The notes below the pieces were generated by a model, which did not search any database, was not told where the DNA came from, and saw only the letters and a list, made by a program, of their open reading frames with translations. From IMG/VR virus record IMGVR_UViG_3300042806_000268, positions 1-23,733 of that record: a stretch of DNA of 23,733 nt. One strand, given 5' to 3'. The stretch comes from a virus. Positions 18,140 to 21,449 of this stretch are shown here, piece by piece (the first letter of the stretch is position 1; every line of letters starts with the position of its first letter). A program made the position numbers and the translations under genes.

Positions 18140-18567
18140 TATACAGCGCCACTTGTAAACCTTCTCCACTCTATGGCATTTTTAATTGTATAAGTTCTAT
18201 TGACTATCATTCTTAATGTACGATCTAAAAAATCAACAACGGTATGTAAATATACAACTTTTTGAGACAATAGTTTTATATCTTCATCAGCATCTAAATA
18301 TTTGTCTATATCAGTTTTTAATATCTTCAAATCAAAAGGTTTATTAATATATACACTCGGGTCTGACTTACCAGTATAATACTCCCACTTATCACGTCTA
18401 AGTGTCTTAAAATCGTCCTCAGCACGTGTTAATAGAAGTTTAAACTTAGTATAGTGTTTCATATACTTATTGTGTAATTGTGGTGTTCTTAATGATTCTA
18501 AATCTAATTCAACATCATTAATTTTAAGGTCTTTGTCTGCTTGTTCTTGTAGTTCTTCAAGTGTCAT
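18139..18567 (-). CDS. uvsY: Recombination mediator UvsY
   Basis: 142 residues from ATG 18567. T4 UvsY loads UvsX recombinase onto gp32-covered single-stranded DNA. The sequence begins MTLEELQEQADKDLKIND, as T4 begins MRLEDLQEELKKD, has similar length (T4 137), keeps a basic central block with YYTG (T4 YYSG), and ends with an Ile/Lys-rich helix like the T4 C-terminus. The start is set by GGAG about eight bases upstream and the one-base overlap with the PP-loop gene stop (TAATG); an in-frame ATG seven codons earlier (18588) is the alternative. It directly precedes uvsW. Confidence 0.9.
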   Translation of the reverse strand: MTLEELQEQADKDLKINDVELDLESLRTPQLHNKYMKHYTKFKLLLTRAEDDFKTLRRDKWEYYTGKSDPSVYINKPFDLKILKTDIDKYLDADEDIKLLSQKVVYLHTVVDFLDRTLRMIVNRTYTIKNAIEWRRFTSGAV

Positions 18568-19208
18568 TAATATACTCCAAATGCCCATTTCTTTTCTTCA
18601 CACCACCAACACTTTTTACAGGGCTTTTTATATTGATTGGTTTGTTCTTGGTTTTCATTTATACAACTATATGTATAAGGTAGTAAAGTTTTTAATAGAT
18701 TGTTTTCTTTATAAATTAAAGCAATATCTTTTTTATTTAAATGATATAAAGGAATAAATTTTTTATCAATTTTAGTACCATCATTATCAATCATATATTT
18801 TTCATTATCTCTTTTTTTATCTCTATTTTCATTATCTTTAAACTTAACATTAGGATTTTTAGTTGCTCCTAAAACAATAAAATCAGTTTGTTTAAAACTA
18901 TTAAAATCGTTAGATGACAGTTCAAATTTATGTTTTAAATACTTTATTATTTTTTTACAAAACTTAAATTTAGTTAATTTAGTTATTTGTTTTAATATAT
19001 CATCAGATTTTTTATTTAAAAAATGATTAGTATGATTTTTAGGTAAGAAAATTAAAGGTGTTATAGTTTTTTTAATTTTACTATCTTTTAAATGTTTTGC
19101 TATCAAATAAGTTAACAATGTACTATCACTTCCACCAGACATACTAACAATAATATTATTAGTAAAAGCAGGCAAATCTAATGTTATTTTTTTATGTATT
19201 TTTAACAT
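18567..19208 (-). CDS. QueC-like PP-loop ATPase
   Basis: 213 residues. The PP-loop SGGSDST (about 24-30) is that of N-type ATP pyrophosphatases, which activate a substrate by adenylation. The C-terminus has YSCIN (about 179-183), PCKKCWWCEEKKWAFG (195-210): four Cys in the C-x(n)-C-x2-C-x2-C arrangement of QueC-type enzymes (7-cyano-7-deazaguanine synthase). QueC makes preQ0 for tRNA, and in some phages for DNA modification. The middle is unusually rich in Lys/Asn/Asp and differs from classic QueC, so related sulfur- or amide-transfer PP-loop enzymes remain possible. No QueD, QueE, QueF or DpdA-like partner is in the window. It has its own promoter ending 11 bases from the ATG and is followed by uvsY with a one-base overlap. 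Confidence 0.7.
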   Translation of the reverse strand: MLKIHKKITLDLPAFTNNIIVSMSGGSDSTLLTYLIAKHLKDSKIKKTITPLIFLPKNHTNHFLNKKSDDILKQITKLTKFKFCKKIIKYLKHKFELSSNDFNSFKQTDFIVLGATKNPNVKFKDNENRDKKRDNEKYMIDNDGTKIDKKFIPLYHLNKKDIALIYKENNLLKTLLPYTYSCINENQEQTNQYKKPCKKCWWCEEKKWAFGVY

Positions 19209-19878: not shown

Positions 19879-19886
19879 TATTTATA
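19879..19886 (-). promoter_or_regulatory. Exact T4-type late promoter, predicted leaderless
   Basis: TATAAATA on the minus strand, followed by TTACT and the ATG at 19873. In T4 the +1 lies about six bases after this box, here the A of the ATG. The preceding gene's stop abuts the box at 19887. Confidence 0.7.
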
Positions 19887-20957
19887 TTAACTTATAATAC
19901 GTCTTTTTGTACCTTTACGTTTAATATCTAATGTTAAACAATGTACACCACCTTCCCAGTATAAACTATGACGTTGAGGAATACAATGGCTATTAATGTT
20001 TAGAGTTTTTAGATATTTAAACAATGCAGGTATTTCTCTATTAAACAATATATTATTACTATCTAATATTAATACATTTAAATCAAAACAAACTTCTTGT
20101 GAAAATCCTCTCCAATTATTTAAATATGATTCCAAATAAGACTTTGAATATTTACCACCCGTTTGCTTATATTCATTAACATACTTTTCAAAGTTTAAAG
20201 GTGGAAGATACTTACCAACGTCTATTAAATTTTTATTCCTTAAACATAAAGGAACCCAATCAATATTATTATGTATTACCGTATCATCATTTATTAAAAT
20301 AAACCCGTGATCTATGTGGCCATAATTATCAGTTATAGTTCCTTCGTTTTCAATAAAACGGATATCAGGTAAGTTTCTTTTAACCCAATTCAATCCTCTT
20401 TTAGAACCAGGACCTGTTCCGTTATAAATTACACTATCGCCTGCTTTAAACATAACAGCAGTATGAAACAATAATTGTTCTTTTAATAAATCACTATAGA
20501 TATCTTTTCTAGTATACCAATTATCTATATTATTTAAATCTTTTAATATAGGGGGTGGACTAGATAACCAGTTATAACCTTCTTTAAATAACTGTGTAAA
20601 TATTTTTGAATAAGATAAAGAATCAAAATATCTATCAGTATAACTTGTATAAGTTTGTAATATAGTATCACCTATAACAATGTATTGGTCTCTTGGAACT
20701 ATAGGACAAATTGGAAAATTAACTTTAAAGTTAACTAAATCAAATTCTTTTTTATATTTAATAACTTCAGGTCTGTGTACTTTAATGTTTGATTTAATTA
20801 AAAAATCAGAAAGATTATTTAAATCTTCTTTAGTTTCTTCTAATATTTTATTAAATCCATCTATAGTATCTTTAGGTAAAGCCCAATCTAAATCGCCGGG
20901 ATCATAACAATCGCCAACAATAACTTCCTGTAAAGGATCAAATTCTGTGTATATCAT
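19887..20957 (-). CDS. Glycine amidinotransferase-like enzyme (AGAT/guanidino-group superfamily)
   Basis: 356 residues. AGAT enzymes move an amidino group from arginine to an acceptor amine. The start YTEFDPLQEVIVGD (3-16) is the family N-terminus. PRDQYIVIGDTI (88-99) matches the conserved xRDxxxVIG strand. HID (214-216) corresponds to the AGAT catalytic His, and GGVHCLTLDIKRKG (336-349) to the active-site Cys loop, with Cys340 as nucleophile. The third catalytic residue, Asp in AGAT's DAADF, is not obvious here: the region aligns with HTAVMFKAG (165-173), so the enzyme may have a changed mechanism or acceptor. The length matches the family (about 350-420). Its ATG overlaps the preceding small gene by four bases, under a T4-late promoter between capsid and tail genes. 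Confidence 0.85.
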   Translation of the reverse strand: MIYTEFDPLQEVIVGDCYDPGDLDWALPKDTIDGFNKILEETKEDLNNLSDFLIKSNIKVHRPEVIKYKKEFDLVNFKVNFPICPIVPRDQYIVIGDTILQTYTSYTDRYFDSLSYSKIFTQLFKEGYNWLSSPPPILKDLNNIDNWYTRKDIYSDLLKEQLLFHTAVMFKAGDSVIYNGTGPGSKRGLNWVKRNLPDIRFIENEGTITDNYGHIDHGFILINDDTVIHNNIDWVPLCLRNKNLIDVGKYLPPLNFEKYVNEYKQTGGKYSKSYLESYLNNWRGFSQEVCFDLNVLILDSNNILFNREIPALFKYLKTLNINSHCIPQRHSLYWEGGVHCLTLDIKRKGTKRRIIS

Positions 20958-21400
20958 TTACCATATCCCATAATTTCTTTTAAATACTCTTTAGACCAAT
21001 TCTTATAATAGTTTGTTTTTGTTAATACTTTTCTAGCGTTATTTAATTCTTTTTTATCTTGGCACAATATTATATTGTGTTTACCATTACCTGTAGATAT
21101 TTTTTTTATGAAGGTTTTAGATTGTTTATGATCTGGTAAAAATATATAATTTCTATATTTTTTGTTTAGTATCTTACATTTACTTTTTAACTTACCAATA
21201 GAAGTCTTTTCTTTGATAACAAATATGATGACATCACAATTATATTCAATCAAATCTAAATTTATATCTTTAAAATTTACTTCAAATATTTTATATGTAG
21301 CAGATTTAGCAAAGGGACAAACTGAATAATTATCTAAGATTTTTGATTTGAATGATATACGATTAATCCACAAATATATATCTTTCATCAATGATTTCAT
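20954..21400 (-). CDS. Unknown small protein (CPFAK motif) co-transcribed with amidinotransferase
   Basis: 148 residues, basic. I do not recognise a family with confidence. A W-I....CPFAKSA segment (residues 11-34) weakly recalls the DUF1415 N-terminus, where a CPFAK-like motif also follows a Trp helix. The rest is a mixed alpha/beta chain with VIIFVIKEK, NYIFLPDHKQ and NIILCQDK strands. There is no signal peptide or membrane segment. Its stop overlaps the amidinotransferase start by four bases (ATGA), so it is probably translated together with it and may supply or accept its substrate. The late promoter TATAAATA stands five bases before the ATG, with no ribosome site. Confidence 0.7.
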   Translation of the reverse strand: MKSLMKDIYLWINRISFKSKILDNYSVCPFAKSATYKIFEVNFKDINLDLIEYNCDVIIFVIKEKTSIGKLKSKCKILNKKYRNYIFLPDHKQSKTFIKKISTGNGKHNIILCQDKKELNNARKVLTKTNYYKNWSKEYLKEIMGYGK

Positions 21401-21405
21401 AATTT

Positions 21406-21413
21406 TATTTATA
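21406..21413 (-). promoter_or_regulatory. Exact T4-type late promoter, predicted leaderless, abutting gp23 terminator
   Basis: TATAAATA on the minus strand, followed by AAATT and the ATG at 21400, so the predicted +1 is the A of the ATG. The box begins one base after the U tract of the gp23 terminator. Confidence 0.72.
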
Positions 21414-21414
21414 T

Positions 21415-21449
21415 AAAAAAAAAGGGAGAGTTTTTTAGACTCTCCCTTT
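21415..21449 (-). terminator. Rho-independent terminator after the major capsid gene
   Basis: An 11-bp perfect stem AAAGGGAGAGT/ACTCTCCCTTT (21439-21449 and 21421-21431, 7-base loop) followed by nine U on the minus strand (21415-21423). It lies about 30 bases past the gp23 stop. A second hairpin (TGTTACT/AGTAACA, 21455-21472) stands directly before it. Confidence 0.9.

Follow-up and report, generated by a model that had tools for sequence, protein, structure and literature searches.

Amidinotransferases of the AGAT type, which include HsvA, StrB1 and SxtG, share a common fold, and the catalytic residues of AGAT are Asp254, His303 and Cys407. Guanidine groups are also acted on by the YqcI/YcgG heme-dependent guanidine N-hydroxylases. 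Among these, AglA is a Cys44-ligated heme-thiolate enzyme that hydroxylates a guanidine nitrogen (PMC12866846), and its relative ChmN hydroxylates arginine (PMC10849742). DUF6875 proteins have been described as heme-binding tryptophan oxygenases (PMC13307353). In phages, a putative glycine amidinotransferase was reported together with five radical SAM genes in a cluster of Campylobacter phages CP220/CPt10 (PMC2853527), and a virus-enriched GAMT was reported from an ocean survey (PMC11360552). Our literature search for phage arginine hydroxylases found no paper.

Here we describe a pair of coupled phage genes, one for an AGAT-type enzyme and one for a small protein with a CPFA motif (hereafter, the partner). 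Given that both look like arginine-type enzymes, and that they are coupled and late, we argue for a phage module that is expressed late and carries out guanidino chemistry, in which the partner would N-hydroxylate as a compact heme-thiolate oxygenase; this reading is tentative, and we put it somewhat short of an even chance.

The window, i.e., the whole stretch of viral DNA analysed (23.7 kb), is a fragment of a marine-type T4-like myovirus, in which gp23, gp22, UvsY, UvsW and a tail-tube-like protein were recognised. Its G+C content is 28.7%, and the closest gp23 among phage records was that of Pelagibacter phage Mosig EXVC030M (79.8%); we infer a SAR11-like host. Judged by eye, positions 250-1734 encode a RimK-like ATP-grasp protein whose C-terminal part resembles a protease. 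As summarised in Table 1, the pair is flanked by gp23 and the tail-tube-like gene, in line with an earlier note on this DNA that had located it between capsid and tail genes. The lengths of both reading frames and their ATGA coupling were likewise as described there. No RNA families were found in the pair region.

Table 1. Positions of the features discussed in the text (numbering of the window).
Feature	Position	Strand	Remarks
QueC-like PP-loop ATPase	18567..19208	-	213 aa
Late promoter TATAAATA of next gene (tail-tube-like)	19879..19886	-	
AGAT-fold amidinotransferase-like enzyme	19887..20957	-	356 aa; H165, H214, D216, C340
Codon of nucleophile Cys340 (AGAT Cys407)	19938..19940	-	
Codon of His214 (AGAT His303)	20316..20318	-	
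Codon of His165 (aligned with catalytic Asp254 of AGAT)	20463..20465	-	
ATGA overlap, partner stop / enzyme start	20954..20957	-	...GGT AAA TGA / ATG ATA...
CPFA partner (phrog_10325)	20954..21400	-	148 aa; putative compact heme-thiolate oxygenase; C28 may be the ligand
Codon of partner Cys28 (invariant; candidate heme ligand)	21317..21319	-	
T4-type late promoter TATAAATA of the pair	21406..21413	-	-13 to -6 of partner ATG
Hairpin resembling an intrinsic terminator, between gp23 and the pair promoter	21421..21449	-	strong; closes gp23 unit

Sequence searches with the enzyme led to AGAT-type amidinotransferases, namely HsvA (6e-24), StrB1, SxtG and AGAT. Its AF2 model (pLDDT 92) aligned over its full length with small-molecule amidinotransferases, with Z scores of 33.6 for HsvA and 32.6 for human AGAT. 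The fold over ~305 residues (Z 32-34), the Cys nucleophile, the His, the equivalents of the substrate-side residues Asp170 and Asp305, and the motifs are shared with this group. Profile alignment to 1jdw matched D90, H214, D216 and C340 with Asp170, His303, Asp305 and Cys407, respectively, so that the two catalytic residues named in the earlier note, His214 and Cys340, fall where it had placed them. The same alignment puts His165 at the position of Asp254, bearing out its remark that there was no obvious catalytic Asp; of the AGAT class features, the nucleophilic Cys and the base His are therefore present and the catalytic Asp254 is absent. The phage enzyme further differs from the described members in having HIDHG in place of HIDA, in its low identity (~25%), and in forming a separate virus-only clade that is coupled to the CPFA partner.

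His occupied the Asp254 site in 35/35 viral family members and in 0/15 bacterial or outlying phage homologues. In a tree of these 50 sequences, one branch (support 100/99) split the 35 His rows from the 15 Asp rows, and the Asp side included Campylobacter phage CP220 and cyanophage S-SCSM2R. Judged from sequence, the His165 enzymes are a single virus-only clade; the close viral relatives found were all of the His165 type and retained PRD, HID and HC.TLD (where not truncated). When the enzyme alone was compared with two close relatives, dN/dS was 0.04-0.05, which argues that it is functional, and the values for the pair genes (0.04-0.10) indicated purifying selection on both.

Loss of the AGAT catalytic Asp, in a pentein fold that includes deiminases and dihydrolases, might instead mean that the His165 enzyme, rather than acting as a transferase, hydrolyses arginine or some guanidino metabolite and thereby depletes the host arginine pool. 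We regard this as very unlikely, since the fold is far closer to amidinotransferases than to either deiminases or DDAH, which score Z 20-23, and the PRD, HID and HC.TLD motifs follow the AGAT pattern. On the same grounds (arginine deiminases, ~22.7 vs 33.6), identification of the enzyme as an arginine deiminase or DDAH was rejected; grouping with deiminases was not seen, and the AGAT-like assignment of the earlier note held in both the active-site alignment and the fold scores. The view of the pair as a cellular gene set was also rejected: a genome scan gave one distant enzyme homologue, which bears Asp, and a search of 398 genomes gave only homologues keeping Asp where it was read. A defence system was rejected as well, as PADLOC profiles matched neither the enzyme, the partner nor the window's QueC-like protein. 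Creatine-type metabolism was likewise set aside: no methyltransferase was recognised adjoining the pair here.

The partner was characterised by an alignment of 41 members, in which W11, C28, P29, D90, Q114, L119, R123, Y131 and Y132 were invariant. Its AF2 model was confident (pLDDT 94), and VIA-align placed five AglA entries on top, with Z scores of 6.4-7.3 over 135-139 residues, which are clearly above those of the other rows but below 8, and a Z of ~7 alone can reflect a common arrangement. The best AglA match reached Z 7.3 over 135 of the 148 residues, compared with 4.1 for the next unrelated row. A Foldseek search of the PDB with the partner model gave no match under E 0.001, and AglA surfaced only by VIA-align. 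The window protein's sequence gave no match beyond chance against Pfam and the PDB. Comparison of the partner with YqcI/YcgG (PF08892) gave an hhalign E of 0.27 and an HMM signal not above decoys, and PF08892 was not listed in the Pfam scans. Judged by eye, CPFAKSA of the partner resembles CVGAKSA on the YqcI/YcgG side. AglA is the best fold match of the partner, and the two have in common a conserved N-terminal-region Cys and a setting of arginine chemistry, but they differ in length (~240 vs 148 aa), are ~10% identical with no significant sequence score, and carry PCVGA and CPFA motifs, respectively; heme binding, established for AglA, is for the partner a prediction from the model.

DUF6875 (PF21780) weakly matched 8 of the 41 partner members (best E 7.3e-5) and not the window protein, and members scanned singly scored below the Pfam cut-off. 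The likeness of DUF6875 and DUF1415 to the partner lies in the CPF motif region but is confined to the N-terminal part; for DUF1415, the alignment was confined to the W...CPFAK stretch, and this assignment was rejected. Based on fold and motif, and not on sequence statistics, the partner could be a heme-thiolate protein with the Cys-Pro cysteine as candidate ligand. No redox partner was recognised in the window. With a heme-thiolate hydroxylase as its best fold match and an invariant Cys-Pro, the partner is likelier to be a second enzyme than the acceptor or helper proposed in the earlier note. The amidinotransferase-like enzyme is of a kind already known, in altered form, and the partner is well supported but uncharacterised; they represent phrog_25854 and phrog_10325, respectively, both phage families without assigned function.

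The pairing of the two proteins is real, and it recurs in many uncultured phages of diverse kinds. With the enzyme as bait, the partner was nearby in 15/22 non-redundant loci; when all loci were considered, it was within 2.6 kb of the enzyme in 26/33, a count that adds loci found through the partner and is so biased by bait. The partner can be directly upstream of the enzyme (the window, L005 and others), convergent and touching it (L137, L140-L142, L147), convergent and fused to an AdoMet decarboxylase (SpeD-type) domain (L143:5544-6359(-), L160:6855-7652(-), L164:7074-7871(-)), or separated from it by at least one gene. In the DNA examined, the partner was not found near the enzyme in the freshwater sister clade of the enzyme or in L163.

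On the minus strand, the gp23 hairpin is followed by TATAAATA, 5 bases and the partner ATG, and the downstream tail-tube-like gene has the same promoter layout, with the end of TATAAATA 5 bases from its ATG. Bare TATAAATA was not enriched in the window (3 observed, 8.7 expected from shuffling). The arrangement TATAAATA-N5-ATG occurred twice, at these two genes, against 0.09 expected, and 8/1000 simulations reached 2. TAAATA ending 5 bases before the ATG was present in 31/31 related tail-tube loci listed, and a stricter search for ATAAATA found it in 12. The promoter preceding the pair was kept in four related contigs. For such late promoters, T4 spacing places the transcription start at or very near the ATG. 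Since the promoters end exactly 5 bases before the ATG, and the TAAATA position is kept in related tail-tube loci, these data suggest that both TATAAATA genes have leaderless late mRNAs. The earlier note's reading was thus supported in part: the AGAT-like enzyme, its conserved coupling to the partner in related phages and the exact late site, which has a late-promoter-like counterpart in relatives, all stood, and the acceptor or helper role came out as less likely.

A late promoter within the virion block is also consistent with modification of the virion, whereby the enzyme would amidinate either a virion glycan or a lysine or ornithine in a capsid or tail protein, and the partner would deliver or prepare the target. 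In related phages, the islands holding the pair and the stand-alone partner often adjoin tail or baseplate genes; most partner loci have no enzyme nearby, and the partner was just upstream of gp25/gp6 in 58/74 loci. However, such adjacency is also consistent with mere late timing, no extra protein-binding domain was seen on the enzyme, and small-molecule amidinotransferases cover its model fully, so that we consider virion modification unlikely. The partner family was present in hundreds of viral contigs, usually beside gp25 in those examined; this stand-alone CPFA family adjoins the baseplate gene gp25 in many T4-like phages (most of L049-L122). No entry for the stand-alone partner was located in cyanophage virion proteomics (PMC3037559).

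The neighbours of the pair in relatives look more like genes for small-molecule biosynthesis or decoration than for modification of a virion component. A class III aminotransferase was present in 26/30 enzyme loci of relatives, with the enzyme usually just downstream, and further island neighbours were 2OG oxygenases, radical SAM proteins, and an epimerase-like protein or flavin halogenase. A phage amidinotransferase inside a radical SAM cluster is also what CP220/CPt10 has, but the enzyme of CP220 has retained the catalytic Asp and is ~30% identical to the window enzyme, and the genome of CP220 yielded no CPFA partner. Freshwater contigs G003 and G005 (L039-L045) also have large islands beside tail-looking genes, with genes for radical SAM enzymes, oxygenases, aminotransferases and glycosyltransferase-like proteins.

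In relatives, the islands with the pair contain a SpeD-type decarboxylase (AdoMet_dc), sometimes fused to the partner, and most AdoMet_dc neighbours retain the Ser in TSHI as well as the Cys in VYTC or VYSC. Phage SpeD homologues were shown to decarboxylate ornithine or arginine (PMC9992855), and the nearest structure to the enzyme, HsvA, is a polyamine amidinotransferase. These points favour a role in polyamine metabolism, in which the enzyme would transfer amidino groups to polyamines or serve mainly to generate ornithine, tuning putrescine, agmatine or guanidino-polyamines for late DNA packaging, consistent with the late timing, and the partner would be its regulator. This alternative leaves unexplained the AglA-like fold, the invariant Cys-Pro, and the oxygenases and radical SAM enzymes of relatives, and neither SpeD nor another polyamine gene was recognised in the window; we rate it as rather improbable. 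A class III aminotransferase was not recognised in the window, a fragment, either.

In the guanidino module that we prefer, the amidino group of L-arginine, or of a derivative, would be loaded on Cys340 and passed to an amine with release of ornithine, by analogy with AGAT. The partner, with Cys28 as heme ligand, would N-hydroxylate the guanidine group on either donor or product, by analogy with AglA. The end product may be a small molecule or a decoration formed around virion assembly. In relatives, the SpeD-type pyruvoyl decarboxylase, the class III aminotransferase and the 2OG oxygenases could produce the amine acceptor or modify it; in the phage described here, the QueC-like PP-loop ATPase beyond the tail-tube gene would be the best candidate third member. 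The recurrence of the pair suggests production of an unusual guanidine compound by phages at a late stage of infection, and the products of the module are perhaps N-hydroxyguanidines. The His-for-Asp swap may, speculatively, suit a less basic donor such as N-hydroxyguanidine. A stronger version, namely a dedicated late phage pathway for N-hydroxyguanidine compounds or decorations, with a miniature heme-thiolate hydroxylase and an amidinotransferase whose catalytic site is rebuilt for hydroxylated guanidines, would provide a new phage-made effector molecule or virion modification; we hold it to be doubtful.

The Asp-to-His swap in an otherwise intact amidinotransferase serves as a natural experiment on an active site known from textbooks. 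With its 148 aa, the partner would, if a heme-thiolate enzyme, be far smaller than AglA. The pair makes it testable which chemistry large aquatic phages perform late in infection.

The pair is cargo, because gp23 directly precedes the tail-tube-like gene in Mosig, Melnitz and many related contigs. Within the set of tail-tube loci, the QueC-like gene was present in exactly the six holding the enzyme; these are five near-identical relatives and the more distant L005, so that the statistical weight is modest. QueC-like relatives also occur in freshwater phage islands bearing the enzyme. In relatives, the gap after the tail-tube gene contains other cargo, e.g., C10, a protein of 460 aa, together with its neighbours C13 and C14 in L219, L234, L240 and others, which points to a cargo hotspot.
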